Positions 7,198 through 27,233 of a stretch of 64,000 nt of DNA are shown here, in pieces (position 1 is the first letter of the stretch; every line of letters starts with the position of its first letter). This stretch comes from Paenibacillus dokdonensis (GTDB lineage Bacteria > Bacillota > Bacilli > Paenibacillales > Paenibacillaceae). The position numbers and the translations under genes are program-made. Location of the stretch: the NCBI RefSeq assembly GCF_004916975.1, contig NZ_STGQ01000002.1:248001-312000 (forward strand). Direction: 5' to 3'. Under the pieces are notes generated by a model. It did no database searches. It worked only from the letters and a program-made list of their open reading frames with translations, and was not told the DNA's origin.

Positions 7198-8589
<1,392 letters not shown>

Positions 8590-8613
8590 TTTGTTCTTCT
8601 TATAAATTAAACG

Positions 8614-8680
8614 AAAAAGCATTCGGATAACCGGAATGAGTGATACATCAACTCTCTCCCGGCAGCCGGATGCTTTTTTT
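8614..8680 (+). terminator. Terminator after gdhA
   Basis: AAAAAGCATTCGG at 8614-8626 pairs with CCGGATGCTTTTT at 8666 onward (one G-T pair), enclosing a long loop and followed by an uninterrupted T run to 8680. Confidence 0.7.
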
Positions 8681-8721
8681 TGCCTGTTACCTAAACCGCT
8701 TTTAGAAAGTTTTCCTCATTT

Positions 8722-8739
8722 GATACCCACATAGGTATC
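8722..8739. promoter_or_regulatory. 18-bp palindrome upstream of the LTA synthase promoter
   Basis: GATACCCACATAGGTATC has perfect 6-base arms with a 6-base centre and ends 9 bases before the -35 hexamer of the next promoter. An activator or repressor site is likely; the binding protein is unknown. Confidence 0.45.
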
Positions 8740-8748
8740 TACCAAGCT

Positions 8749-8777
8749 TTGACTTCTTCACTCTAGCGGGGCATAAT
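8749..8777 (+). promoter_or_regulatory. Promoter of the LTA synthase gene
   Basis: TTGACT (8749-8754), a 17-base spacer and CATAAT (8772-8777) lie 64 bases upstream of the GTG start at 8841. Confidence 0.6.
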
Positions 8778-8840
8778 GTTTTTATTAATGTAAAAGCTAA
8801 TACGCTAAGTTGTTTATCCACAACGGAGGGAAGTTGTGTC

Positions 8841-10691
8841 GTGTCACGTGAATCTATTATTCATTTTTTCAAAAAGCCATTCATTCTTTTTACGATCATT
8901 TTGCTGCTAAAAGGATATTTAGCATGGGCCGTAACCTTCGGCGACTGGCTGCCATGGAAGGTATTGATTACAGAGCTACCGTTTATCTGGCTGTTGTTCT
9001 GCTTGATTGAATGGTTCTCGTCCAAACGGAAATTAATGAACTACACCATCGTGAATTTAATTCTCACCGCGGTCTTTTTTGCGGTCATTATGTATTTCAA
9101 ATACTACGGCGTTATCGTCACCTACCATGCCCTGGCTCAGGTCAATCAGGTGACAGAGGTGAAGAGCAGCGTATTTTCGCTGATGGATCCTTACTACCTG
9201 CTTGTATTTGCTGACATCATCGTGCTGTTCGTACTGCTGCTCAAAAGCCGCAAGGTTAAAGCTTGGAGACTCGGCATCAAACGCAAACCCAGCAAGAGCA
9301 CCGTGTCCGTCGTATTCATTCTTTGTCTGATGATCTGTTTGTTCAACATCCTGCCGAATCGTGCCAGCATGAACGAAATCAAAAAAGCTCAGCAGATGGG
9401 AATTTTGAATTACGAAGCGTATACAATTCTTTCGCTTAAGAAGGAAGAGCTCGTTCCGCTGAAGAACATCAATCAGGCATCCATCGACAAGCTGAAGGGA
9501 ATCACAGCACCAAAGAATCCCCAGTATTATGGCAATGCAAAGGGAAAGAACCTGATCATCATCCAGCTCGAATCCTTTCAGAACTTCCTGATTAACCTGA
9601 AAATTGACGGCAAGGAAATTACGCCGAATATGAACAAGCTCGCCAACGAGAACCTGTACTTTTCAAATTTTAACCAACAGGTAGGCCAAGGAAATACATC
9701 GGATGCCGAGTTTGTGGTCAATACGTCCTTTTATGTCCCGCCTGATGGCGCGGCAACTCAGAAGTTCGTCGACAAGAAGCTGCCGAGTCTGCCCCGGCTG
9801 ATGGAACAGAACGGCTACAACACCGCAACTTTGCATACCAATGACGTGCAGTTCTGGAACCGCGAGGAGCTATACTCGTCTCTTGGCTTCCAGCATTACT
9901 ATGATCAGTCTTTCTTCGGCAAGGATGACATGGTGTTCTTCGGGCCTTCTGATGAGGTGCTGTACGCGAAGTCTACCGATAAGCTGCAGGAAATGGATCA
10001 GGAAGATAAGCCTTTTTATGCCCAGATCATTTCCATGTCGGCGCATCATCCATTCACCATACCGGAAAGTAAATACAAGATGGATCTTCCTGAACGGTAT
10101 CAAGGTACTTTTGTCGGAGATTACATCCGCGCCCAAAACTATGCCGATTACGCGCTAGGCCAGATGATTGATGATCTCAAGCAAAAGGGACTCTGGGACG
10201 ACAGTCTGATCGTCCTGTACGGCGATCACATGGGGCTCCCGATTTATTCGCTGGATCATGATGACAAGGAGCTTATGAAGGAAATCTACGGGCATGAATA
10301 CTCGTATACCGACATGCTCAACATCCCGCTCATCATTGCCGGCAGCGGCGCTCAGCACGAGCAGATCCGTGATGAGATTGGCGGCCAGTCAGACATTATG
10401 CCGACCGTTGCCAATCTTCTGGGTATTTCCATGAAGGATCATATCCATTTCGGTCAAGACCTGCTCAACCAGACCTATAACCTGATTCCTGAGCGGTATT
10501 ACCTCCCGACCGGCTCCTTCCTGAACGATAACGCCATGTTCATGTCGGGCAGCGGCTATGAGGACGGATCACAGTTTCCGCTGAGCGGTAAAGATTCCGT
10601 CGGTAAAGGTACGACCGAGGATGAATACAATCGCGCCCTGAAGCTGCTGAACCTGTCCGACAGCTATGTGAACCAGCAGCCGAAGAAATAA
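8841..10691 (+). CDS. Lipoteichoic acid synthase-family sulfatase
   Basis: A 616-residue LtaS-type phosphoglycerol transferase. Five hydrophobic segments fill residues 13-170, then an extracellular sulfatase-fold domain follows. The active site is visible: Glu in IQLES (E244), the nucleophilic Thr in GQGNTSDAE (T286, equal to T300 of Staphylococcus aureus LtaS) and the YGDHMG motif with metal-binding Asp and His. It polymerises glycerol phosphate from phosphatidylglycerol outside the membrane. B. subtilis has four such paralogues (LtaS, YfnI, YqgS, YvgJ) and I cannot tell which this equals, so no symbol is given. GTG start with GGAGGG 10 bases upstream. Monocistronic, closed by the terminator at 10740. 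Confidence 0.93.
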   Translation: MSRESIIHFFKKPFILFTIILLLKGYLAWAVTFGDWLPWKVLITELPFIWLLFCLIEWFSSKRKLMNYTIVNLILTAVFFAVIMYFKYYGVIVTYHALAQVNQVTEVKSSVFSLMDPYYLLVFADIIVLFVLLLKSRKVKAWRLGIKRKPSKSTVSVVFILCLMICLFNILPNRASMNEIKKAQQMGILNYEAYTILSLKKEELVPLKNINQASIDKLKGITAPKNPQYYGNAKGKNLIIIQLESFQNFLINLKIDGKEITPNMNKLANENLYFSNFNQQVGQGNTSDAEFVVNTSFYVPPDGAATQKFVDKKLPSLPRLMEQNGYNTATLHTNDVQFWNREELYSSLGFQHYYDQSFFGKDDMVFFGPSDEVLYAKSTDKLQEMDQEDKPFYAQIISMSAHHPFTIPESKYKMDLPERYQGTFVGDYIRAQNYADYALGQMIDDLKQKGLWDDSLIVLYGDHMGLPIYSLDHDDKELMKEIYGHEYSYTDMLNIPLIIAGSGAQHEQIRDEIGGQSDIMPTVANLLGISMKDHIHFGQDLLNQTYNLIPERYYLPTGSFLNDNAMFMSGSGYEDGSQFPLSGKDSVGKGTTEDEYNRALKLLNLSDSYVNQQPKK

Positions 10692-10738
10692 AACGGTAGC
10701 TGTTACATGGGAGGCTGAGTGTATCCCCTCCCAAACCT

Positions 10739-10778
10739 AAAGAAGTCTCGCCCGAGCCGGGTGAGACTTCTTTTTTTT
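10739..10778. terminator. Bidirectional terminator, LTA synthase / response regulator
   Basis: AGAAGTCTCGCCCG and CGGGTGAGACTTCT form a long near-perfect stem with a T run on the plus side and an A run on the minus side. It serves the convergent genes ending at 10691 and 10794. Confidence 0.88.
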
Positions 10779-10793
10779 GCACATATCCTGTTT

Positions 10794-11567
10794 TCATTTG
10801 GCATTCCGTTTCTTGTAATCCTTCGGGGTCATTTGCACCATCCGCTTGAACAGCTTGTTGAAATACACAGGATCGCTGTAACCGACAAGCTGCGAGATCT
10901 GGTAGTTTTTCAAATCAGGATGATCAATCAGGAACTGCTTGGCCTTTTCAATCCGTACCTCAATCAAATAATCCGTGATCGTATGACCTGTTTTGGTCTT
11001 GAACAGGCGGCTAATGTAGCTCGGACTCATGCCGGTCGTCTCAACGAGACGCTCCAGTTCAAAATTTTTATCATATTCTTTATCCAGGAAACCTTTGATC
11101 TGATCCACAACATAATGCTCGCCGGCCTCATGATCAGACAGATCTCCGGAACCCTCTACTGCTTCTGCAGCCCGGGTATCGTTACCGCCTACATTCTTAT
11201 TCTTCAAGTTCTTAAGCAGCTCATAGAGCTGCATTTTATCGATCGGCTTCAACAGATAATCCATCACGCCGAAACGGAGCGCTTGGCGCGCATACTCAAA
11301 CTCGCTGAAACCGCTTAGCACAATGATCGCAAGCCGATCCATTTTGTCTCTAACATGCTCAATAAGACGGAGTCCGTCCATCATTGGCATTTTAATATCC
11401 GTGATGAGACAGTCCACCTCACCCGGATCGGTTTTAGACAGTTGATTCAGCGCATCCATCCCGTTGCCATATGATCCTATGACTTTTACGTCGAGATCCA
11501 TTCTGGATATGATCTTCTCCAATCCAAGCCGGATCACTTCTTCATCGTCCACAATCATGATATTCAT
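10794..11567 (-). CDS. YesN-type response regulator (AraC output), without adjacent kinase
   Basis: A 257-residue response regulator. The receiver domain begins MNIMIVDDEEVIRLG with the phospho-acceptor Asp in ITDIKMPMMDG, the Thr/Ser switch in IVLSGF and the Lys in LLKPID. Two AraC-type helix-turn-helix motifs fill the C-terminal 100 residues (VETTGMSPSYISRLFKTKTG and QISQLVGYSDPVYFNKLFKR). It is the last gene of the broken mannan importer operon, 114 bases beyond the repaired end of the second permease. Such regulators nearly always sit next to a YesM kinase; none is here. The nearest unpaired YesM kinase is at 25090. The gene itself is intact, unlike its operon partners. Confidence 0.92.
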   Translation of the reverse strand: MNIMIVDDEEVIRLGLEKIISRMDLDVKVIGSYGNGMDALNQLSKTDPGEVDCLITDIKMPMMDGLRLIEHVRDKMDRLAIIVLSGFSEFEYARQALRFGVMDYLLKPIDKMQLYELLKNLKNKNVGGNDTRAAEAVEGSGDLSDHEAGEHYVVDQIKGFLDKEYDKNFELERLVETTGMSPSYISRLFKTKTGHTITDYLIEVRIEKAKQFLIDHPDLKNYQISQLVGYSDPVYFNKLFKRMVQMTPKDYKKRNAK

Positions 11568-11700
11568 GGATTATCACGCCCTTTCGCTGTTATGCCCTTA
11601 CGCGCATGAGAGTAGCATACACTGGATGCTGCGTGTAAGTCCTGAAGGCATAGGCCTAACGGGTCAAGGGAATCTGAGGGCTACTTCACAGCGCCGCTCG

Positions 11701-12522
11701 TCACCCCGCAAATATATACCGCTGCAGGAACAGATATAAGATTGCCGTCGGGATCATGATAATCATAATCGCTGAGGATACCATTTGCCAATCACCGCTG
11801 TTCACGCCAAAGAAACGCATCAGCGAGGTGGAAACAACCACATGCTCTTGCCTTGGGAGGTACAGATACGGTGTGAACATATCATTGTAAATGGCGATCG
11901 TTTTCAGAATAACGATTGTCGCCGTGGCTGGTGCCAGCAGCGGAAATATAATCGAGCGGTAGATCCGGAAGAGGGAGGCTCCTTCAAGCATCGCGCTCTC
12001 GTCGAGTTCATTCGGAATGTTGCGGATAAATTGAAGATAAATATAGATCTGCATGATATCAGCTCCGATATAGAGCAGCACGGGTCCCAAAAGATTATTC
12101 GTCAGACCGATCCCCTGGATGGTTTTGAAGTTCACAACCTGCGTGGTAATCTGCGGAATAATGGTCGCAAACAGAAATAACCCCACAATCAAGCCTTTAC
12201 CGCGAAAATCGAACCGCCCCACCGCATAACAGAACGCAGAGCCCAGGAATATGTTCAAAATAAGCGTCAGCGCAATAATGATGAGAGTATTGCCAAAAGC
12301 AAGACCCATATCCGCTTGTTTGAATGCATTCATAAAGTTGCTGAAGTTCAGGAAGTTGTCCGGCAGGGACAATGTCGGATTGTTCAGGAATTCCTCCTTG
12401 GTTTTAAAGGAGTTGACCACAATGATGTACGGAGGAAACAGGATAACCAAAACCGCTAAGAGCAAAGAGATGTACTTCAGCGTCTGGATTGCAGCATGGG
12501 CGCCGTTCTTTTGAGTAACCAT
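11701..12522 (-). CDS. Carbohydrate ABC permease (MalG type), C-terminus frameshifted
   Basis: A 273-residue inner-membrane permease with six predicted helices and the EAA loop (LDESAMLEGASLFRIYRSIIFP). The reading frame stops at RYIFAG (stop 11703-11701). In the next frame the sequence continues VTSGAVK and a TAG at 11683-11681, exactly the family ending (RYFVQG/FAGVTSGAVKG). Restoring one G in the run GCGGGG gives the full protein, so a single-base deletion has removed about seven residues. The protein may still work. It follows the first permease by 3 bases. Together with the other damaged genes of this operon it suggests decay of the importer; a homopolymer sequencing error is the alternative for this particular lesion. 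Confidence 0.82.
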   Translation of the reverse strand: MVTQKNGAHAAIQTLKYISLLLAVLVILFPPYIIVVNSFKTKEEFLNNPTLSLPDNFLNFSNFMNAFKQADMGLAFGNTLIIIALTLILNIFLGSAFCYAVGRFDFRGKGLIVGLFLFATIIPQITTQVVNFKTIQGIGLTNNLLGPVLLYIGADIMQIYIYLQFIRNIPNELDESAMLEGASLFRIYRSIIFPLLAPATATIVILKTIAIYNDMFTPYLYLPRQEHVVVSTSLMRFFGVNSGDWQMVSSAIMIIMIPTAILYLFLQRYIFAG

Positions 12523-12525
12523 AGC

Positions 12526-13409
12526 CTAACCCCTCCCCTTGTTCAAGAAATAACGCTGGACACCTAACACGATAACGACAAGAACCAACAAGACAACACT
12601 CATGGCCGAAGCCAGCCCATAGTTGTTAAATTGAAATGCCGTCTCGAGAATTTTCATGACAAAGGTCTCGCTCGCGCCCGCAGGTCCGCCATGGGTCAGA
12701 ACGAAAGGAATATCGAATACTTCAAGCGCCCCGGTTACGGTCAGGAACAAATTGAGCTCGATGATCTGATATATATTCGGAAGCGTAATCCGGATAAAAG
12801 ACTGCCAGCCGTTCGCACCGTCAATCGACGCCGCTTCATAAATGTCTTTTGGAATCGACTGCAATGCAGCCAGGTAAACCACCATGTTGAAGCCCATGAA
12901 GCGCCATAGCCCTATCGATGCAAGCGTATAGTTCACAAAGGATTCGCTGCCGAGCCAGCTGGTCTCTGACGGGAGGCCAAACACCCCAAGAACCCTATTC
13001 AAAGAGCCTTGAGTCGTATCAAATACATATCCGAAAAGATAGGCTACGGCTACCCCATTCAGAATGTATGGCAAAAACAGCAGAAGCCTGAAAAACAATT
13101 TGCCCCTGAGCTTGCTGTTCAGCAGGACGGCAAAGTAGATCGCCAGAATGTTCTGGATGATCCCCACTACAAAATAGGCGAGGTTATGCTTGAATACGCC
13201 GAAAATCTCCGGATTAGAAAAGACCTCTCTATAGTTCTCCCATCCGATCCATTGCTTGTCAGGACTCAATCCATCCCAGTTAGTGAAGCTTAGGCGGATG
13301 AGCTCAACCGCCGGATAATAGGCAAAAGTAAGTAAAAGCAGAGGGGCACGACCGTAAACAGGATCATGATAATGGTCTTCTGCTTGCGAAACGAAAGATG
13401 GCTGAGCAT
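12526..13409 (-). pseudogene. Carbohydrate ABC permease (MalF/UgpA type), frameshifted near the N-terminus
   Basis: The body from about 13344 down to 12526 encodes a normal permease (AYYPAVELIRLSFTNWDG, EAA loop IYEAASIDGANGWQSFIRIT). Its true N-terminus lies in another frame: ATG at 13409-13407 gives MLSHLSFRKQKTIIMILFTVVPL, typical for this family, and then runs out of frame at CCCCTCTGC (about 13346-13338). Adding one C there joins the two parts into VVPLLLLLTFAYYP. The ATG has no ribosome-binding site because the DNA just upstream is the middle of the binding-protein gene, left there by a deletion. As it stands, the open frame fuses about 50 residues of binding protein to the permease, preceded by an amber stop. 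A working product is unlikely. Confidence 0.82.
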
Positions 13410-14016
13410 GTACGATGCCTGCACTCTTCAGCTTTTCGCAAATCGCCAGAAACTCGTCGTAAGTTTTAGGCATCTCTGTAATGCCCGCTTTCTCAAAAGC
13501 CTTCTTGTTATATACAATCCCTACCGTAGAAGCCCCGGAGGATATGCCGTACATCTTGCCGTCCTAAACCTTCGCATCCTTAAAGTAGAGATCGCCCGAG
13601 AACTGAATGTCATCCATCGGTTCAAAATATTTCGGAAGATCCGCGTTGGGGATCGTAGGGATAAACACGACATCCGGATACTCGCCGGAAGAAATGCGGA
13701 TTTTCACGTTTTTGTCGTAGTCCGTGATCGCTTCGAACTGCAGATCCACATTCGGATACTTTTCTTCAAAACGCTTTTTGTAATCATCGTACTGTTTGCC
13801 GATCATATCGGTACGGTTTGTCAGAAAGACAAGCTTTCCGCTTGGCCCATCATCCTTACCGGCATCCGTTTTCCCTGCATCCTTCGTCTCAGCCGTTTGG
13901 CCAGTGCTGCCGGTGTCCGTACCCGAACCTGAACTGCTATTATCTTTTCCGCCGCACGCCGCTAAGGTTGTTATCATCAAACAAACTATTAATGATAACG
14001 ATAGTATCTTATTCAT
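13410..14016 (-). pseudogene. Truncated sugar-binding lipoprotein (importer component)
   Basis: The gene starts normally: MNKILSLSLIVCLMITTLAA then C, a lipoprotein signal with lipobox LAAC, followed by a Gly/Ser/Asp linker and the binding-protein fold (VFLTNRTDMIGKQYDDYKKR). An in-frame TAG at 13566-13564 interrupts it where the paralogue at 23795 has a Tyr (AKV-stop-DGKMYGIS against FKSYNGVRYGIA). The same frame continues to KLKSAGI and then, near 13410, jumps straight into the 5' end of the permease gene. About 270 residues of binding protein are therefore missing. The sugar would have been a manno-oligosaccharide, judged from the divergent mannan operon. A cre-like site and a TATAAT lie just upstream. 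Confidence 0.88.
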
Positions 14017-14334: not shown

Positions 14335-14354
14335 CAAAGAAAGAGGTGCATGCT

Positions 14355-15329
14355 ATGCAAGCAAAGAAGCTTCCCGGATATGTCGCCGGAATGACTTGGG
14401 GCTGGACTGGAATTCGCGGAACCTGGAACACGCCAGAGGCAGTACATTCCATGAAGGAGATGAAGAACTCGCTAGGTGTAAACTGGACGGCTATTGCGCT
14501 GGGCGCTCTCCAGGATACGGCTCAATCTACGGAAATTCATTTCGAGGAAGAACCCACCGTTACGGATGCGGAAGTGAGATGGGCCATTCATGAAGCCAAA
14601 TCACTGGGTCTGCATGTCTGTCTTAAACCGGTGGTGAACTGTGCGGATGGCACATGGCGAGCGCATATTAACTTTTTTGATATGGACGTTCCGTGTGAGC
14701 CCAAATGGTCCGATTGGTTTGCTTCCTATACCCGGTTTATGCTTCACTATGCTGTCATCGCGGAGGAAACCGGCTGCGAAATGCTGTGCATCGGTTGTGA
14801 AATGGTACAGACGGACCGCAGGGAGCAGGAGTGGCGCCAGCTCATTCAGGAGGTACGCAAGGTCTATTCCGGTCTAATCACGTATAACTGCGATAAATAT
14901 CAGGAAAATCAGATCAAATGGTGGGATGCCGTAGATATCATCTCTTCGAGCGGCTACTACCCTGTCGGAACATGGGAAGAACAGCTGAGCCGAATCGAAC
15001 CTGTCGTGCAAAAGCACGGCAAACCCTTCTTCCTCATGGAGGCAGGCTGTCCAAGCCGGACGGGTTCCAGCCAAATCCCGAACAATTGGGGGCTTCCAGG
15101 CACACCCAGCGAAGATGAACAGGTCGAGTACTATAACCAGATGTTCCAAAGCTGCGGTCGGCAGGACTGGGTATCCGGTTTTATGCTGTGGGACTGGCCT
15201 GCTGTTCTCTATAAACCGGAGACCGCAGCAGTGAATGACGATTATTGCCCTTATGCCAAAAAGGCAGCGCAAGTGATTCGCGGGTATTACGATGCAAAAA
15301 CACAGCTTCTGGAAGGGGGTCAAGCATAA
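14355..15329 (+). CDS. GH113 beta-1,4-mannanase
   Basis: A 324-residue cytoplasmic (no signal peptide) TIM-barrel hydrolase of glycoside hydrolase family 113. It opens GYVAGMTWGWTGIRGTW, typical for the family. Candidate acid/base and nucleophile are E149 (LCIGCEMVQTDR) and E229 (PFFLMEAGCPSRTG). Their spacing of 80 residues equals that of E151 and E231 in the Alicyclobacillus acidocaldarius enzyme, as I recall it. The family cuts internal beta-1,4-mannosidic bonds of manno-oligosaccharides. ATG at 14355 is chosen over an upstream GTG at 14346 because AAAGAGG lies 8 bases before it. The stop overlaps the next start (TAATG). It supplies mannobiose for the next two enzymes. Confidence 0.87.
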   Translation: MQAKKLPGYVAGMTWGWTGIRGTWNTPEAVHSMKEMKNSLGVNWTAIALGALQDTAQSTEIHFEEEPTVTDAEVRWAIHEAKSLGLHVCLKPVVNCADGTWRAHINFFDMDVPCEPKWSDWFASYTRFMLHYAVIAEETGCEMLCIGCEMVQTDRREQEWRQLIQEVRKVYSGLITYNCDKYQENQIKWWDAVDIISSSGYYPVGTWEEQLSRIEPVVQKHGKPFFLMEAGCPSRTGSSQIPNNWGLPGTPSEDEQVEYYNQMFQSCGRQDWVSGFMLWDWPAVLYKPETAAVNDDYCPYAKKAAQVIRGYYDAKTQLLEGGQA

Positions 15330-16531
15330 TGAACTTTCCAGAGGAGCAAATCGATACGTGGAAATCTGAATTGAAGCAAGAGCTTCAGGAGCATATCCTT
15401 GGCTTTTGGATGAAGCATACCCCGGATGAGATGCATGGCGGATTTCTGGGGGAGATCACCCCGGATTTAAAGGTGATCCAGGATGCTGATAAGAGCCTGG
15501 TGCTGAACACCCGGATTCTGTGGACATTCGCAGCCGCTTACCGGCTGTACGGAGATGAGGCTTACCGCCAAATGGCGGATCGCGCCTATCAATACATTCT
15601 CCGCCATTTCGTTGATCAGGAATTCGGCGGCCTCTACTGGATGCTTCATGCAGACGGCTCGGTATCGAATGACAAGAAGCAGGTATACGGTCAGGCCTTC
15701 GCCATCTATGCTTTATCTGAATATTACCGTGCGGTACAGCAGGAGGAAGCTCTTGATCTGGCCGTTCATCTCTTCCGTATTCTGGAGGAGCACAGCTATG
15801 ATCCGGTGCATAAAGGGTATGTCGAAGCCTTGTCCCGCGATTGGAAGCAGACCGCTGATTTTAGCCTGAGTGATAAGGATTTGAACGAAAAGAAATCGAT
15901 GAACACCCACCTGCATGTGCTCGAGGCTTATACGAATCTATACCGCGTATGGCCGGACGGGAAACTCCATCATCAGCTTGCCGAACTGATCGGGGTGACT
16001 CTGGATCATATTGTGCATCCGGATCAGACTCACTTCCTTCTGTTCTTTGAAGAGGCATGGCAGGCGAAATCGAATCATATATCCTATGGACATGACATTG
16101 AAGGCAGCTGGCTGATGGTCGAGGCTGCGGAAGTGATTGGTGAAGCTGAATTGCTGAACCGCGTAAAGCTAACGGCTGTGGCCATGGCAGATCATGCGCT
16201 ATCAGAAGGCGTTGATCCGGATGGAGGCATGGTGAACGAGGCCGATTCCAGCGGATATATCGACACCCGCAAGGACTGGTGGCCGCAAGCAGAAGCAATG
16301 GTTGGTTTTTATAATGCTTATCAGTTAACAGGCGTCAGTAAATTTTATGATGCCTCCCTCTGCTCCTGGCAGTTCATTAAGCGGAGCATCATTGACCCCG
16401 AACATGGGGAATGGTTCTGGAACGCTGACCGTGAAGGCCGGCCAAACCGGGAGCAGCCAAAGGTCAGTGCCTGGAAATGCCCTTATCATAATGGCCGGGC
16501 CTGTATGGAAATGATTGAACGTCTTGGTTGA
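15329..16531 (+). CDS. Cellobiose/mannobiose 2-epimerase
   Basis: A 400-residue AGE/cellobiose 2-epimerase family (alpha/alpha)6-barrel enzyme. It inverts C2 of the reducing sugar, turning beta-1,4-mannobiose into 4-O-beta-mannosyl-glucose. Conserved catalytic stretches are visible: NTRILWTF (Arg), MNTHLHVLEAYTNLYR (His), ISYGHDIEGSWLMVEA (His, Glu) and SAWKCPYHNGRACMEM (last His). The ATG at 15329 overlaps the stop of the mannanase gene and fits the family N-terminus (MNFPEEQIDTWKSELKQEL); a longer frame reaching back into the mannanase gene is not credible. The neighbouring GH130 phosphorylase uses its product. Confidence 0.93.
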   Translation: MNFPEEQIDTWKSELKQELQEHILGFWMKHTPDEMHGGFLGEITPDLKVIQDADKSLVLNTRILWTFAAAYRLYGDEAYRQMADRAYQYILRHFVDQEFGGLYWMLHADGSVSNDKKQVYGQAFAIYALSEYYRAVQQEEALDLAVHLFRILEEHSYDPVHKGYVEALSRDWKQTADFSLSDKDLNEKKSMNTHLHVLEAYTNLYRVWPDGKLHHQLAELIGVTLDHIVHPDQTHFLLFFEEAWQAKSNHISYGHDIEGSWLMVEAAEVIGEAELLNRVKLTAVAMADHALSEGVDPDGGMVNEADSSGYIDTRKDWWPQAEAMVGFYNAYQLTGVSKFYDASLCSWQFIKRSIIDPEHGEWFWNADREGRPNREQPKVSAWKCPYHNGRACMEMIERLG

Positions 16532-16562: not shown

Positions 16563-17741
16563 ATGAATACATGTTTTGAAGAGCGCAAGAAGCATCTGAC
16601 AGAACGTTACGAGGCCCTTATTAAACGTCCCAACCCAAAAGTACCTTATGGAAACGGCATCTACGACCGTTATGAGTATCCGGTTCTAACCGCCGAGCAT
16701 GCCCCGCTGATTTGGAAATATGACTTTTCAGAACAGAATAATCCCTATTTTATGGAGCGGATGGGTATCAACGGTGTATTCAATCCCGGCGCCATCGAGC
16801 TCGGCGGCAAGTTCTACCTGATGGCCCGTGTAGAAGGAGTTGACCGCAAATCCTTTTTTGCGGTGGCGGAGAGTGACAACGGCGTGGACGGATTCCGCTT
16901 CTGGGATCACCCCGTCGTGATGCCCGAAACGGAGAATCCGGACATTAACGTCTACGATATGCGTCTCATTCAGCATGAAGATGGGTTCATCTATGGGCTC
17001 TTTTGCACCGAACGCAAGGATCCGGACGCCCCGCGTGGCGACCTCTCCAGCGCGGTTGCTCAGTGCGGTATTGCCCGTACGAAGGATTTGATCAGCTGGG
17101 AGCGGCTGGCTGATTTGAAAACCGGTTCGGCGCAGCAGCGTAACGTCGTGCTGCATCCGGAATTTGTGGATGGCAAATACGCGTTCTATACCCGTCCACA
17201 GGATGGTTTCATTGATACAGGCTCCGGCGGCGGAATCGGCTGGGGACTATCCGATTCGATCGAGCAGGCAGTGATCGAGCATGAGATCATTATCGATGAG
17301 CGGTATTATCATACGATCAAGGAAGTGAAGAACGGACAGGGACCTGCTCCGATCAAGACTGATAAGGGGTGGCTGCATATCGCCCATGGCGTACGCAACA
17401 CCGCAGCAGGTCTTCGTTACGTGCTGTATGCTTTTCTGTCTGATCTGCAAGAGCCTTACAAGGTAACACATGCACCAGGCGGACATTTCATCGCACCGGA
17501 GGGCGAGGAACGGGTCGGCGACGTGTCCAATGTGGTTTTCTGTAACGGGATCATTGCCCGGGACAATGGCGAAGTCTATATTTACTACGCCTCTTCGGAT
17601 ACAAGAGTTCATGTTGCGACAACAACCGTGGAGCAGCTGCTTGATTATGTGATGAATACTCCGGAAGATCCGCTGCGTTCCTATGCATGTGTTCAGCAGC
17701 GTCTTGAGCTGGTTGAACGCAATCTGCAGCATGCCGAATAA
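16563..17741 (+). CDS. GH130 4-O-beta-D-mannosyl-D-glucose phosphorylase
   Basis: A 392-residue five-bladed propeller enzyme of family GH130 (subfamily 1 by length and motif). It phosphorolyses mannosyl-glucose to mannose 1-phosphate and glucose. The catalytic Asp is in [11 protein letters not shown] at residue 132, one residue from the position I recall for characterised family members (D131). Phosphate-binding Arg/His stretches follow (LMARVEG near 87-92; [14 protein letters not shown]). Ribosome-binding site GGAGAGGAAG precedes by about 8 bases. Gap to the epimerase is 31 bases, so the three enzymes form one operon and a complete route from manno-oligosaccharide to glycolysis. It is followed by a strong terminator. 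Confidence 0.94.
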
Positions 17742-22631: not shown

Positions 22632-23711
22632 CTATTCTGCCGAAGCCTGGCTACCCGGGGCTGCTGCGGTTGAATCACGGTAAACAATATCCCCTGCGAG
22701 CAGAATCTTCTCCATCGGCTCATGAAAACGCTCAATCCGCTCCAGCAGCTTCTGTACTGCACGACGGCCCAATGCTTCCTTGGGGACATGAACCGTTGTG
22801 AGACGCGATCCACCCTGCGGTGAATCCTCAATGTTGTCAAAGCCGGTAACGGATACTTCAGCAGGCACCTTCACACCAAGCTCGTTAAGCACCCTTAATG
22901 CCGTAACAGCAATAGAGTCATTGGCGCAAACTAGAGCTGTAGGCATCGATTTGGTCTTGAGCTTTCGTGAAACCCAGCTTCTGATCTCACTTTCAACGTC
23001 GCCCTTCTCCAGCTCCTGCAGCTGCAGCACGAATCCCTCCTGAACTGCCGGACTCAGTCCATGCTCGTCCAGCGTGATCTTAAATCCGATATGACGGTCG
23101 CGGAAGCTCCGGGAAAAGCGGTCATTGCCAATGAACTGCAGCCGGTTGTGCCCGATTCCAATCAGATGATTGGTCAGTCTCGCCATCGCATCCATGTTAT
23201 TCACAAAGATCGTATCCGAAGGGATAAGCGGATCCTCCATGTCTACCAGAACAATCGGCAATCCCATCCGGTGCACCTCCAGCAATAACGGCGTTGAAAT
23301 TTGGCCTACTCCAATCAGCCCCATGATCCCGTCCGGATTCAGGATGTTCACGAAGTTATCGACGCTCTGCTCCGAAATAATTACCATTCCAAGGCCCAGG
23401 TCTTCAAGACTGCTGGAAATCCCCTCTAGAATCTTGCCCCAATAAAGAGAATCCTTCGTCTGAAAGCGGATATTAGGCATCAGTACGATGACGGATTGCT
23501 TCCCGCCTGTTTTCGGTGAAGGCCGCTCCGTTTTTACGGTTCTCATATAGGCATTTTTTTGCGAAAAATATCCAAGCTGGGATGCGGCCTGAATCACCCT
23601 CTCCTTCGTCATCTCGTTGACACCGCCTTTGCCGGACAACGCTTTGGATACGACGAATTTAGACACGCCCAGATGGTCGGCAATTTGCTGCATAGTTATC
23701 TTCTTAGCCAT
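22632..23711 (-). CDS. LacI-family transcriptional regulator
   Basis: A 359-residue repressor. The N-terminal helix-turn-helix reads ITMQQIADHLGVSKFVVSKALSG, with the hinge helix after residue 50; then a periplasmic-binding-type effector domain (NPDGIMGLIGVGQ; TALVCANDSIAVTALRVL; VSVTGFDNIEDS). It follows the binding-lipoprotein gene by 83 bases on the same strand and precedes a terminator, so it seems to be the last gene of the kinase-lipoprotein-regulator operon. An Asp/Asn-rich pocket suggests a sugar effector, but which sugar cannot be said. A possible target is the mannan locus 6-9 kb away (inference). Confidence 0.9.
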   Translation of the reverse strand: MAKKITMQQIADHLGVSKFVVSKALSGKGGVNEMTKERVIQAASQLGYFSQKNAYMRTVKTERPSPKTGGKQSVIVLMPNIRFQTKDSLYWGKILEGISSSLEDLGLGMVIISEQSVDNFVNILNPDGIMGLIGVGQISTPLLLEVHRMGLPIVLVDMEDPLIPSDTIFVNNMDAMARLTNHLIGIGHNRLQFIGNDRFSRSFRDRHIGFKITLDEHGLSPAVQEGFVLQLQELEKGDVESEIRSWVSRKLKTKSMPTALVCANDSIAVTALRVLNELGVKVPAEVSVTGFDNIEDSPQGGSRLTTVHVPKEALGRRAVQKLLERIERFHEPMEKILLAGDIVYRDSTAAAPGSQASAE

Positions 23712-23794: not shown

Positions 23795-25093
23795 TTATAT
23801 TTTTGAATTCCTTCTTGCCTGCTCCCATCTTCGGTTCAAATCCTCGAAGGCCTTACCCAGATCGGGGGAAGCAATCAGTTCCTGAATATAGTCGCCTGAC
23901 CAAAAGGAGATCCCTGCTTTGTTCGCCAGTTCAATGAACTCATCCGTCTGCTGCTTATTCTCCACAAGCTCGGGCTTATAGGACAGAAACTCCTGAAACT
24001 GCGGCATCGTCGTTTTTTGTGTTGTATCTACAGGTAAAAAACCGGAGTCATTCACATACCCTGATTCTTTGACATAAAATTCGATCCAAGCGCGGGCCAG
24101 CTCTTTATTGGTGCTGAATTTGCTTACGCCAATGAACCAGTCGGGCGTCAGAGGCGCGTAATGCTGCTTGTTATTATCATAGGGAAACGGAAAAAATCCA
24201 ATGTCCTCCGGATTCGCTCCGGCATCAATAACCTGCTGGATCGCCCAGTTCCCCAGAAAATACATGGCCGAATCGCCGGAGGCGATTTTGCTCTTGGAGA
24301 TTTCCCAGCTGTTTGAAAACAAATGATCCTCCACATACCCCCGGTTAATCAGCGTTTTGGCGATGCCCACCGCCTGTCCCCATGGATTATCCAGCTGAAA
24401 AGGCTCATCTTCATTCACCATATTATTCAGCGCGTCTGACGAACCGGTCATGTAGTTCACCATGTTCTCCCCCCATTGCTGGAGAGGCCATTTGGCACCA
24501 TAATTCATATACAGCGGAATCATCCCAGCCGCTTTCAGCTTGGCGCATGCTTCATAAAAAGCGTCCAAGGTCCCAGGCACCTCATGGATACCAGCCTTGG
24601 CAAAGGATTTCTTATTATACACAATTCCGATCGTGCTGCTTCCCGTGGCGATTCCGTATCTCACTCCATTATAGGATTTGAAATCCGGAAAGCGTACATG
24701 CTCGAACATCGATTCGTTCAACGGTTCAAAATAGCTGGGCAGGTCCTTATTGGCAATACTGACCGGAAGCAGAAGCACATCCCCAATATCCCTCGTTGAC
24801 AGCCGTACCATGACATCATTGGTGTAATCCGTAATGCCTTCAAACTCTACCTTGGCACCGGGATACTTTTGCTCGAAATGTTCAGCGTACTTCTCCAGAA
24901 CGCCGCTTTCGATCAAATCTACCCTGTTTGTCATGACATGGATCGTTCCGCTCATCTGTCCGCCCGCATGCGGAATACCCTTGGCCGGTTCAGCCTTCGG
25001 GTTTGCCTGCGACGTTTCCCTGCAGCCGGCTGCGGCAGGCAGACACAACAGCAGAACGCCTATGAGCAGCCAGCGGTTCCATTTTTTTATCAA
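23795..25093 (-). CDS. Extracellular solute-binding lipoprotein coupled to a sensor kinase
   Basis: A 432-residue family-1 sugar-binding lipoprotein. Signal peptide with lipobox PAAAG-C at residue 24, then TIHVMTNRVDLIESGVLEKY and VYNKKSFAKAGIHEVPGTLD, typical of the oligosaccharide-binding group. It aligns along its first half with the damaged lipoprotein at 13410-14016. There are no permease genes nearby. The TTG start at 25093 overlaps the stop of the kinase gene (TTGA), with a G-rich Shine-Dalgarno-like stretch about 9 bases upstream, so the two proteins are translationally coupled. Two roles are possible: binding component for permeases encoded elsewhere, or an accessory sugar sensor feeding the kinase. 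I favour the second on context. Confidence 0.88.
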   Translation of the reverse strand: MIKKWNRWLLIGVLLLCLPAAAGCRETSQANPKAEPAKGIPHAGGQMSGTIHVMTNRVDLIESGVLEKYAEHFEQKYPGAKVEFEGITDYTNDVMVRLSTRDIGDVLLLPVSIANKDLPSYFEPLNESMFEHVRFPDFKSYNGVRYGIATGSSTIGIVYNKKSFAKAGIHEVPGTLDAFYEACAKLKAAGMIPLYMNYGAKWPLQQWGENMVNYMTGSSDALNNMVNEDEPFQLDNPWGQAVGIAKTLINRGYVEDHLFSNSWEISKSKIASGDSAMYFLGNWAIQQVIDAGANPEDIGFFPFPYDNNKQHYAPLTPDWFIGVSKFSTNKELARAWIEFYVKESGYVNDSGFLPVDTTQKTTMPQFQEFLSYKPELVENKQQTDEFIELANKAGISFWSGDYIQELIASPDLGKAFEDLNRRWEQARRNSKI

Positions 25094-27000
25094 TGACCAT
25101 TCCCCCCGTGATCATCCGGGCTGCTTTCGAGCAATACCGGCTTTGTACCCAGCGGCGGCAGCTCAATCACAACCTCAGTGCCCGCTCCCAGGCGGCTGAA
25201 TACTCTCATCCCGTACGCACTGCCATACTGCAGACGGATTCGTTCATGAACATTCCGCAGGCCAATGCCACCATTGCCTTCCCTTCGCGGAGCCGCCGTA
25301 GCCTGCAGCGACTGATTTAGCGCCTCGAGCGATCCTTCATCCATACCGCAGCCATCATCACGGATTGTCATACGCGTCAGTCGCGGCGTCATTTCCGCCT
25401 CTATCCATATATTCATCTTAAGCTTGAGATCATCCAATCCATGATAAACCGCGTTTTCCACGATCGGCTGGAACAGCAGGCGGATAATTGCGTATCTCAT
25501 GAGTGGCTCAGGTATATCCAGATGAAGCTCAAACCGGTTCGGATACCGATAATTCAGCAGCTGTACATAATGAATGACATGATCGATCTCCTCTCGCAGA
25601 GGAACCTCGTCTTGAATTTTGCCACCGATGCTGTAACGCAGCATTTTGCCCAAAATAGAGATCATGTCGGCTGCATCCGTGTCATCATTCAGCTCAGCCG
25701 TCATCCGGATCGTCTCCAGCGTGTTGTAGACAAAATGGGGGTTGATCTGGCTCTGCAGCGCCTGCATCTCTGCTTCCTTCTTCTGGCTCTCGATTTGGTA
25801 GATATCGTGGATTAATTGCTGAATCCGGCTGAGCATGCGATTGAACTGGTTGCCCAGCTGCCCGATCTCATCACGGTGTTTGACCTTAAACTTGACGCTT
25901 AAATCCCCTGCCTGCACTCTCCGCATCAGCCCGATCATTTTCTTCATCGGCTTAGTAAATGCAAAGGACAGAATGATAGAGGCGAGCAGTGCAACACCTA
26001 TGATAAACAGTGTGGCCAGAAGCGTCACATTGCGGGTCACATCCGCCTCCTTCGTGAGCTCCTTGACCGGAATCTGAATAATCACCTTCCACTTCGTCAG
26101 CGGAGATGTGGAGTATATGTACAGCTGGCGTTTGCCATCCACTGTATCATAGAAGCTGCCGCTGGTTCCTTTTGCCTTAAGCACCACCGGGTTACCGGAT
26201 GCGTTGATCGCCAGCATTTTACGGCCGCTGTCATATATCACATCCCCCTGTTCATCAATAATCAGCGAGGTTCCCCGGGTTACCTTATCGAGCTCCACCA
26301 CTTGATCCACGATCACGCTGATATTCGCGTCTACCGCTATCAGTCCGATGGGATTCAAGGAACGGTCAAGGATTTTGCGGACAACCGTAAAAGCATAACG
26401 AGTACTCTTCAGATTACTCCGGTATTCCTGAGTGCTGAACAGAAGCGCTTCACCATGCGTGGCGGCCACTTTGTCCATCCAGAGCTTGTAGCTGTCTGCT
26501 ATATCCAGCCTTACAGCGCCGTCCTTGCTGGAATAATATCCGTTACCGTATTGATCGAAGATATAGACCGAATTTGCTCCTCTTTTAATATTGTTGATAA
26601 ACGCGATATTTCCCTCGATCCCCCGCTGGATGGACAGCTGCAGATCAAAATCATTCGGGTACGTATTACTGCCGTCCTTGCCTACAACCTGCTGCCTCTG
26701 CTCATGATATTCATTGGAACGCACCAGATTGAGCTTGATATCGTCAATGTAGGCGGGAATGGACGAAATCCGCTTCATATCCTCGATATAATCATCCACC
26801 CTCTCCATCATCTGGCCGATCATATTCCGTGAGTAGAGAACCGTATTTTCCTGAATTGAGCGTGAATAACTATTATAAGAAATCAGGCTGATCACAGACA
26901 ACGGAAGAATAATGATGATAATAAAAACCAGCAGCAGCCGCCGTTCCATACTCATGTCACTCAGCCGCCAGCGCGGGTTCAGACGCCGGTTCTCCTTCAT
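25090..27000 (-). CDS. YesM-type sensor histidine kinase without adjacent response regulator
   Basis: A 636-residue membrane kinase. A first membrane helix (residues 20-45), a large extracellular Cache-like domain, a second helix near 325-350, HAMP (KPMKKMIGLMRRVQAGDLSVKF), then the His_kinase motif QINPHFVYNTLETIRM with the phospho-acceptor His, and an ATPase domain (IRDDGCGMDEG; GGIGLRNVHERIRLQYG). ATG at 27000 has AAGGAG 10 bases upstream and is better placed than a TTG at 27006. Normally a YesN regulator gene adjoins; here the next gene is a binding lipoprotein. The only unpaired YesN in the window is at 10794. The promoter region carries an inverted repeat of GAATTTGTTA. Confidence 0.92.
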   Translation of the reverse strand: MKENRRLNPRWRLSDMSMERRLLLVFIIIIILPLSVISLISYNSYSRSIQENTVLYSRNMIGQMMERVDDYIEDMKRISSIPAYIDDIKLNLVRSNEYHEQRQQVVGKDGSNTYPNDFDLQLSIQRGIEGNIAFINNIKRGANSVYIFDQYGNGYYSSKDGAVRLDIADSYKLWMDKVAATHGEALLFSTQEYRSNLKSTRYAFTVVRKILDRSLNPIGLIAVDANISVIVDQVVELDKVTRGTSLIIDEQGDVIYDSGRKMLAINASGNPVVLKAKGTSGSFYDTVDGKRQLYIYSTSPLTKWKVIIQIPVKELTKEADVTRNVTLLATLFIIGVALLASIILSFAFTKPMKKMIGLMRRVQAGDLSVKFKVKHRDEIGQLGNQFNRMLSRIQQLIHDIYQIESQKKEAEMQALQSQINPHFVYNTLETIRMTAELNDDTDAADMISILGKMLRYSIGGKIQDEVPLREEIDHVIHYVQLLNYRYPNRFELHLDIPEPLMRYAIIRLLFQPIVENAVYHGLDDLKLKMNIWIEAEMTPRLTRMTIRDDGCGMDEGSLEALNQSLQATAAPRREGNGGIGLRNVHERIRLQYGSAYGMRVFSRLGAGTEVVIELPPLGTKPVLLESSPDDHGGNGH

Positions 27001-27044
27001 CTCCAAGGCTCTCCTTGCGACTCAAATTATGGTGATTCGGATGT

Positions 27045-27148: not shown

Positions 27149-27176
27149 TTGACAAAACAAGTCATCGGCGTATACA
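27149..27176 (+). promoter_or_regulatory. Promoter of the small-protein/ABC exporter operon
   Basis: TTGACA (27149-27154), a 16-base spacer and TATACA (27171-27176). The -10 lies inside the first of two operator-like repeats. Confidence 0.65.
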
Positions 27177-27215
27177 TTTGTATACAAGTTAAAAAGCGTA
27201 TGCATTTGTATACAC
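27168..27215. promoter_or_regulatory. Twin operator, 28-base period
   Basis: GCGTATACATTTGTATACAA (27168-27187) and GCGTATGCATTTGTATACAC (27196-27215) match at 18 of 20 positions. Each holds the palindrome GTATAC-N4-GTATAC (second with one change). TTGTATACAA inside the first resembles the core of the B. subtilis gluconate GntR operator, so a GntR-family repressor is a candidate; none is encoded next door. Confidence 0.65.
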
Positions 27216-27233
27216 TTTGAAGGAGTGACAATT

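Follow-up and report, generated by a model that had tools for sequence, protein, structure and literature searches.

AraPST is the name of the two-SBP sensor system of Geobacillus stearothermophilus. Several further arrangements of a binding protein (SBP) and a sensor kinase have been described. In CuaDSR, the cellobiose sensor of Ruminiclostridium cellulolyticum, the kinase ectodomain is reported to bind the sensing SBP but not the SBP of the transporter, and CuaS can give a weak response in the absence of CuaD (PMC10384115). For NagB1/NagB2 of Paenibacillus sp. FPU-7, a sensing role was proposed by the authors for the SBP encoded beside kinase and regulator genes (PMC8233162), while in the Vibrio chitin system a single binding protein was reported to serve both delivery and signalling (PMC10384115, PMC8233162). 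Ten of the 11 characterised SBP–kinase couples are gene neighbours; two Pseudomonas SBP/kinase neighbour pairs were tested and gave no interaction, SBP and kinase genes that adjoin each other need not be functionally linked, and adjacency alone can mislead (PMC11113362).

The window analysed here, a 64-kb stretch of Paenibacillus dokdonensis DNA, carries such a gene pair on the reverse strand. A YesM-type sensor kinase with a dCache ectodomain is encoded at 25090–27006 (638 aa; start codon TTG at 27006 or ATG at 27000), and its Pfam domains are dCache_1 (60–310), HAMP (349–397), His_kinase (412–492), and HATPase_c (509–618). With the membrane helices placed by eye, the ectodomain spans approximately residues 45–325. 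It is followed by SBP_A (23795–25093, 432 aa; Pfam SBP_bac_1, E 6e-28), the sugar-binding lipoprotein that we assign to sensing, whose N-terminus ...LLLCLPAAAGC reads by eye as a putative lipobox. The stop codon of the kinase (TGA) and the TTG start of SBP_A share four nucleotides (25090–25093), and a LacI-family gene (22632–23711, same strand; Pfam LacI, Peripla_BP_3) lies behind the lipoprotein gene, both as described in an earlier note on this DNA. The 4-nt overlap recurs in loci L031, L123, and L032, each with its own start codon. With the start taken as that of the longest frame, the kinase and SBP_A frames overlap or lie no more than 32 nt apart in 47 of the 48 loci read, P. dokdonensis included; the lipoprotein gene is broken in L073, the sole exception.

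The earlier note regarded the kinase as lacking a response regulator. This does not hold, as a short YesN-type response regulator (Response_reg at 3–118 and an AraC-type HTH) is encoded in the same window at 10794–11567, on the same strand as the pair, 13.5 kb downstream of it, and beside the mannan-uptake genes. In all 48 genomes with the complete triad of kinase, SBP_A, and regulator, the regulator gene shares strand and contig with the kinase gene and lies 1.5–27.6 kb downstream of it. It stands immediately behind SBP_A in two of them, G122 and G130, where the contiguous order is kinase–SBP_A–regulator–SBP_B–permB–permC. An identical 22-row clade is present in the kinase and regulator trees, and the 11 nearest non-triad kinases and the 11 nearest non-triad regulators originate from the same 11 loci. 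Judging by its receiver and AraC-type HTH domains, co-occurrence, trees, and position, the regulator is the co-inherited and proposed partner of the kinase, with which it shares its line of descent and from which it would receive the phosphoryl group. An orphan kinase without a regulator is ruled out by the co-occurrence, the matching trees and loci, and the downstream position in 48 of 48 genomes.

The regulator departs from the canonical YesM/YesN arrangement in that its gene does not adjoin the kinase gene in P. dokdonensis, while a regulator gene adjoins 49 of the other 54 kinase genes in the genome. In addition, its length of 257 aa is not that of the canonical full-length YesN (roughly 500 aa, including a long central region), as compared with 503–506 aa in the six complete loci of the genus. 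Catabolic genes, plus three further genes in the P. dokdonensis lineage, lie between the sensor pair and the regulator; therefore, the pair looks orphan, and such a sensor can be missed.

The absence of permeases, also claimed previously, is true of the immediate neighbourhood, but the permease gene permC (11701–12522; intact frame, BPD_transp_1, 99% to permC of L031) and a damaged permease gene are located on the same strand of the window. The latter, permB, belongs to a damaged fusion (12526–13554) that joins the middle part of a binding protein (SBP_bac_1, 8–67) to a permease (BPD_transp_1, 135–336) and has an approximately 870-bp deletion relative to L031. SBP_T, the binding protein belonging to the transporter itself, is represented by a front fragment at 13564–14016 on this strand, its frame ended by an in-frame stop. 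Thus, two transporter components, the binding protein and one of the permeases, are broken in P. dokdonensis, and the sensor genes are intact. That the presumed target transporter is broken in this genome counts against the sensor reading. The binding protein concerned had been taken for a paralogue of SBP_A; the two are indeed homologous (46% over 149 aa), but the intact relative of the broken protein belongs to a different SBP clade. The forward strand encodes a GH113 family enzyme, a probable beta-mannanase (14346–15329; Pfam GH113, E 7e-144), a GlcNAc 2-epimerase family enzyme (15245–16531; PF07221, E 2e-42; longest frame, with the true start probably further in), and a GH130 phosphorylase family enzyme (16563–17741; Pfam Glyco_hydro_130, E 3e-23). 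Across the 48 triad loci, the transporter beside the regulator is of the SBP_B type in 43 and of the SBP_T type in 4, and a contig end is reached in 1. A second, separate SBP for the transporter is accordingly present in 47 of 48 loci (not visible in 1), broken in G000 and split in L063, and the sensor gene set is unchanged across both transporter types.

A survey of kinase–lipoprotein adjacency in relatives, as suggested in the earlier note, revealed that 48 of the 100 genus genomes retain the pair. Orthologues of all three genes are present in these 48 and none in 51, and the regulator alone was found in one incomplete assembly; the Fisher value on this co-occurrence ignores relatedness among the genomes. 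In each of the 48 triad loci, at identities down to ~56%, the SBP_A gene adjoins that of the kinase with its extracytoplasmic dCache_1 domain, and a permease is the next gene behind SBP_A in 0 of the 48 loci read. Since this kinase lineage occurs in outgroup loci together with permeases, a single binding protein, and a YesN regulator, the pair was probably derived from a complete locus of this kind by rearrangement. Homologous loci in which the pair is always followed by permeases and a YesN regulator had been named beforehand as a sign of mere deletion; although the outgroup loci agree with this in part, the pair has been kept since its origin and is under purifying selection (dN/dS relative to G063 is 0.05–0.08 for the kinase, SBP_A, and the regulator), which argues against decay.

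The best solved relative of SBP_A is BlMnBP1, with similarity across the whole fold (phmmer E 1e-48 over residues 39–425). BlMnBP1 and BlMnBP2 of Bifidobacterium animalis subsp. lactis are transporter proteins (PMC8106489), and the best solved relatives (PDB 6i5r, 6i5w, 6i5v, 6fuv) bind manno-oligosaccharides. In our own alignment, Asn56, invariant in 38 of 38 SBP_A proteins, matches the mannosyl-contacting Asn63 of BlMnBP1, a single residue that is no proof of specificity. The sister clade of SBP_A consists of SBPs from loci with permeases, where they are the sole SBP labelled; therefore, a transport role is possible for SBP_A.

We are fairly confident that the locus represents a three-component beta-manno-oligosaccharide sensor consisting of SBP_A, the kinase, and the distant regulator, with the transporter using a separate SBP. 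SBP_A would bind beta-manno-oligosaccharide outside the cell and would touch the dCache ectodomain of the kinase, which would phosphorylate the short regulator. The latter would act on the mannan transporter genes next to it and, probably, on the GH113, epimerase, and GH130 genes as well. Uptake would be left to a separate transporter equipped with a binding protein of its own, and the LacI protein encoded behind SBP_A would probably provide a second control layer. The earlier note, which had favoured a three-component sensor over the feeding of a transporter, is probably right on function: its lipoprotein set aside for sensing agrees with the pairing in 48 of 100 genomes, but the missing regulator has to be given up.

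It is unlikely, in our opinion, that SBP_A has a dual use, feeding the mannan permease pair and signalling via the kinase, as reported for the Vibrio chitin system (PMC10384115, PMC8233162). The position of SBP_A next to SBPs from permease-bearing loci would fit such a use, as would the state of P. dokdonensis, in which the transporter SBP is broken, yet permC and SBP_A are intact. However, in 47 of 48 triad loci the regulator-linked transporter comes with an SBP of its own, SBP_A persists alongside both transporter types, and permB is damaged too in P. dokdonensis, so SBP_A could not rescue uptake via permB there. As for the pair being a remnant of a complete kinase–regulator–permease–SBP operon that lost its other genes, complete loci of such kind exist in the genus and order, and the P. 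dokdonensis transporter is broken. We nevertheless consider decay highly improbable and set it aside, given the retention of the arrangement in 48 genomes, the co-occurrence of the triad with the regulator retained along with the kinase and SBP_A, and the low dN/dS.

Slightly less probable than dual use is that the kinase directly senses something else and SBP_A is merely an operon neighbour. The adjacency of the two genes in 48 of 48 loci down to ~56% identity, versus 40 of 48 for LacI and 34 of 48 for the chemoreceptor, speaks against this, as does the adjacency of 10 of 11 characterised couples (PMC11113362); the two Pseudomonas pairs without interaction (PMC11113362) and the weak response of CuaS without CuaD (PMC10384115) speak in its favour. 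The comparison of distances in 27 loci with all six parts, out of 39 looked at, also points that way. The Spearman correlation of SBP_A distances was 0.86 with the kinase sensor domain and 0.89 with its cytoplasmic part. The partial values were 0.28 and 0.45, respectively, when LacI, regulator, and GH130 distances were held, and 0.12 and 0.38 when the other kinase part was held too. No co-evolution signal specific to the sensor domain and SBP_A was found in these 27 loci, and the distance correlation was dropped as a sign of SBP_A–kinase contact, the value for the sensor domain being below that for the cytoplasmic part.

The LacI gene is next behind SBP_A in 40 of 48 loci. A palindrome, TGATWGCGCWATCA, occurs near the regulator start with no more than two mismatches in 31 of 37 loci, which include L086 of G023. 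In a control, 300 random palindromes with the same half-site composition were found in 0.28 loci on average, and one reached 31; the control gives no probability, as the genomes are related. The control palindrome that reached 31 loci may be the TGATWGCGCWATCA motif itself. The 64-kb window lacks the palindrome (3 matches at no more than three mismatches versus 12.1 expected), as do L031 and L032. Five of the 37 loci have no LacI gene, and four of these five carry the palindrome; for these reasons, it was not assigned as the operator of the SBP_A-linked LacI.

In 34 of 48 loci there is a chemoreceptor gene of the dCache type, which in most relatives lies immediately upstream of the kinase gene. 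The chemoreceptor and kinase ectodomains are both assigned to Pfam dCache_1, and their similarity is limited to short weak matches in five loci. It is a speculative and rather doubtful idea that SBP_A serves two receivers, the kinase for mannan gene induction and the upstream chemoreceptor for taxis towards mannan sugars. If true, one lipoprotein would couple gene induction and chemotaxis in a Gram-positive bacterium. The P. dokdonensis locus has the kinase branch only.

From these sequences, this soil bacterium appears to sense the breakdown sugars of plant mannan by a sugar-binding surface protein reporting to its own membrane kinase, with the corresponding regulator encoded a few genes off, next to the genes for mannan uptake. 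A probable sensing protein for beta-mannan utilisation by Paenibacillus can now be named, together with a probable kinase and regulator, and the predictions are that SBP_A binds manno-oligosaccharides and that the kinase phosphorylates the distant regulator. In the P. dokdonensis strain, the sensor genes remain intact despite a broken transporter, and the relatives P. chibensis and P. dendrobii possess an intact transporter.

The known systems resemble this locus to different degrees. BlMnBP1 and BlMnBP2 are the nearest solved relatives of SBP_A by sequence, with Asn63 matching Asn56; they are part of a transporter, with no kinase mentioned in the available text, whereas SBP_A is paired with a kinase. 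Both XylFII-LytS of Clostridium beijerinckii, in which one SBP senses and another takes up, and the Geobacillus stearothermophilus system, with separate SBPs for sensing and uptake, respond to other sugars (via PMC10384115). NagB1/NagB2 come from the same genus, with one SBP beside a kinase and regulator and a homologous SBP beside permeases; however, they concern chitin oligosaccharides, and the regulator is adjacent there and distant in P. dokdonensis. CuaDSR likewise combines a membrane-anchored SBP, a class-I kinase with an extracytoplasmic part and HAMP, and a YesN/AraC regulator, and its transporter is served by a second SBP, as in the Paenibacillus loci. It differs in having the SBP, kinase, and regulator in one operon, whereas the Paenibacillus regulator lies beside transporter genes, in its 538-aa regulator with a long middle stretch versus 257 aa in P. 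dokdonensis, and in its ligand, cellobiose instead of the expected manno-oligosaccharide. This kind of sensor, CuaDSR-like, is already known, and the locus would be a further good example of it and not a new kind.

The sensor kinase is encoded on the minus strand at 25090-27006 and carries dCache_1 (residues 60-310), HAMP (349-397), His_kinase (412-492), and HATPase_c (509-618) domains. The sugar-binding lipoprotein coupled to it, SBP_A (SBP_bac_1, E 6e-28), lies on the same strand at 23795-25093. As the earlier note had read, the two genes overlap at 25090-25093: the kinase gene ends in ...GGT CAT TGA, and the TTG start of SBP_A, with a G-rich stretch upstream, begins at the last T of CAT. 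An identical 4-nt overlap occurs in the nearest relatives (loci L031, L123, and L032). The LacI-family gene reported behind SBP_A is likewise present (22632-23711, minus strand). Compared with the closest relative, G063, the kinase (dN/dS 0.083), SBP_A (0.049), LacI (0.056), and the regulator discussed below (0.082) are under purifying selection. Between the kinase and a divergent small gene at 27225, downstream of which are two ABC exporter-like genes, there are two near-identical copies of a GTATACATTTGTATAC-type palindrome (27168-27221, 28 nt apart), which look like a putative operator of the small gene.

The pair had been described as lacking a response regulator; however, a regulator of 257 aa that combines a receiver with an AraC-type HTH is encoded at 10794-11567, on the same minus strand. 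Adjoining it, likewise on the minus strand, are a permease gene (11701-12522), a damaged gene that fuses a binding protein to a permease (12526-13554), and a fragment of a binding-protein gene (13564-14016). Next, on the plus strand, come genes for a GH113 protein, a GlcNAc 2-epimerase family protein, and a GH130 protein, whose families point to beta-mannan breakdown enzymes. Between these enzyme genes and the LacI gene are three genes read by eye as encoding a putative amidohydrolase, purine permease, and adenine deaminase.

Several features of the sequences argue that the regulator at 10794-11567 is the predicted partner of the kinase. The same 100 genus genomes were searched separately for the three proteins: SBP_A was found at an identity of at least 56% in 48 genomes (for G034, as a partial-length match), the kinase at no less than 60% in 48, and the regulator at no less than 62% in 49. 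The next matches, 43-44% for the kinase and 37-38% for the regulator, are separated by a clear gap. All three proteins occur together in 48 genomes, none in 51, and the regulator alone in one, the 72% complete G023 (Fisher p 5e-28, a value that ignores genome relatedness). All 48 loci with the triad of kinase, SBP_A, and short YesN-type regulator were examined (39, then nine more, L123 and L153-L160), and each has the regulator downstream of the kinase, with both genes on one contig and one strand, at a distance of 1.5 to 27.6 kb (median 6.6 kb). The gene order in G122 and G130 is kinase-SBP_A-regulator-SBP_B-permB-permC-GH130b, with no other gene displayed between. A comparison covered 77 kinases and 72 regulators, taken from outgroups, from 11 of the 48 loci with the triad, and from this genome (duplicate locus L048 dropped). 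The 11 kinases that came nearest from outside the triad belong to the same 11 loci as the 11 nearest regulators from outside it. Trees built from the cytoplasmic part of 68 kinases and from 68 regulators, out of 72 pairs after leaving out four with kinases of at least 700 aa, share a 22-row clade of the 11 triad and 11 nearest non-triad loci; its support is 100/95 and 100/97, respectively, from bootstraps not fully settled. Of the 55 His_kinase hits in this genome, 54 are other kinases, and in 49 of these a regulator gene is directly next to the kinase gene in its run. The exceptions are L099 and L132 (kinase-SBP-regulator), L116 (regulator at the run end), L135 (broken kinase, regulator in the run), and L148 (no regulator in the run).

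Natural interruptions of sensor components are seen in L051 (G012), where the kinase frame is split, and in L073 (G034), where SBP_A contains a stop. In 31 of 37 loci (e.g., L034 11524-11537), an operator-like palindrome, TGATWGCGCWATCA, lies close to the start of the regulator gene; the window lacks it.

The suggestion that no transporter gene is near stands for the immediate surroundings of SBP_A, with a permease directly after it in none of the 48 loci, but not for the window, given the permease and the damaged fusion. LacI directly follows SBP_A in 40 of the 48 (exceptions L063, L066, L068, L069, L071, L153, L154, and L155). The transporter beside the regulator has its own binding protein, which is SBP_B in 43 loci (in L063 as two pieces) and SBP_T in four (this genome, where it is broken, G063, G125, and G047); in L039, the contig ends before it. 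Thus, SBP_A is constant while the transporter type varies. In a 56-row SBP tree, the 15 rows of SBP_A group as a single clade (100/100), separate from SBP_T and SBP_B. Its sister (99/97) comprises SBPs from complete loci; in six genus genomes, these loci are ordered LacI-kinase-regulator (503-506 aa)-permB-permC-SBP, some with GH113 too, and permC was not found in one of them (L126). Because these sister SBPs belong to loci with permeases, a transporter SBP is the probable ancestor of SBP_A, which would then have been set aside for sensing. The loci support the proposal that the lipoprotein serves sensing and does not feed a transporter, and the sister SBPs temper it; overall, SBP_A has the look of a sensing protein and not of the binding protein of the transporter. 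In L050 and L075, from another family of the order, one SBP gene follows the kinase and regulator genes and another is next to the permeases; according to the tree, the two stem from a separate SBP duplication. In the present genome, an SBP gene is the immediate neighbour of 13 of the 54 other YesM-like kinases (L094, L099, L106, L114-L116, L121, L131, L132, L137, L140, L145, and L147); no permease is labelled in the same run at L094, L115, and L132.

In 34 of the 48 triad loci, a dCache chemoreceptor gene precedes the kinase gene in the same orientation, which gives ground for another reading, in which SBP_A is shared by the kinase and the chemoreceptor. The count combines 29 of the 39 first-examined loci, three of them (L051, L056, and L061) past a small frame, gap, or split kinase piece, with five of the nine later ones. 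The loci concerned fall within L033-L044, L051-L061, L065, L067, L070, L072-L074, and L156-L160, not every range member being independent evidence. However, the gene is missing in 13 loci where its position is visible (in L062, the contig ends before it), and the kinase and chemoreceptor ectodomains are not clearly similar, so we consider sharing unlikely. It is absent upstream of the kinase in this genome, G063, G047, and G125, and the eight LacI-less loci lack it as well; the best copy elsewhere in this genome is 52% identical. At L090 of G041 (8192-11638), where no kinase is labelled, a chemoreceptor gene 34% like that of the triad loci is directly followed by the gene of an SBP that is 38% like SBP_A and has a long branch in the SBP tree.

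As for the ligand of the putative sensing protein, the solved structures closest to SBP_A are the manno-oligosaccharide binders 6i5r/6i5w/6i5v (BlMnBP1, E 1e-48) and 6fuv (BlMnBP2, E 4e-44). According to PMC8106489, which assigns 6fuv to BlMnBP2, the two proteins differ 2500-fold in mannobiose affinity, and Asn63 of BlMnBP1, a glycine in BlMnBP2, contacts the sugar. Pairing of alignments places Asn63 at SBP_A Asn56. This position is Asn in 38/38 SBP_A, Gln in 39/41 SBP_B, and Asn in 4/6 rows labelled SBP_T; 11 other SBP_A-like proteins have His (6), Asn (3), or Gln (2). The pattern at this one position suggests that SBP_A may be tuned to short manno-oligosaccharides, as CuaD, the sensing SBP of Ruminiclostridium cellulolyticum, is to cellobiose.

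The sensor genes probably control the mannan transporter. Relative to L031 of G063 (SBP_A 98% identical), where the region is intact, a deletion of ~870 bp joins the front of SBP_T to permB, and an in-frame stop precedes it; 12526-14016 is what remains of SBP_T and permB. With the frames of the sensor genes intact, the transporter presumably under their control is likely dead in this strain. A second close relative of SBP_A was not found in this genome, the next full-length match being 27%.

A mannan three-component sensor in Paenibacillus was not found in the titles and abstract openings of the open-licence full texts searched. In Bacillus sp. N16-5, the SBP of the mannan transporter, ManH, belongs to a cluster with a LacI-type listed regulator (PMC4792470), and NagB1/NagB2 of Paenibacillus is a proposed case of SBP sensing (PMC8233162). 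As a caution, characterised SBP-kinase couples are neighbours in 10 of 11 cases, yet adjacent Pseudomonas pairs that were tested gave no interaction (PMC11113362). The closest worked-out case is the cellobiose sensor CuaDSR, in which CuaD binds the kinase ectodomain, whereas the transporter's CuaA does not (PMC10384115). Distinctive of the probable sensor described here are its short regulator, the location of that regulator next to the transporter genes, and the chemoreceptor gene that neighbours the kinase in most relatives.
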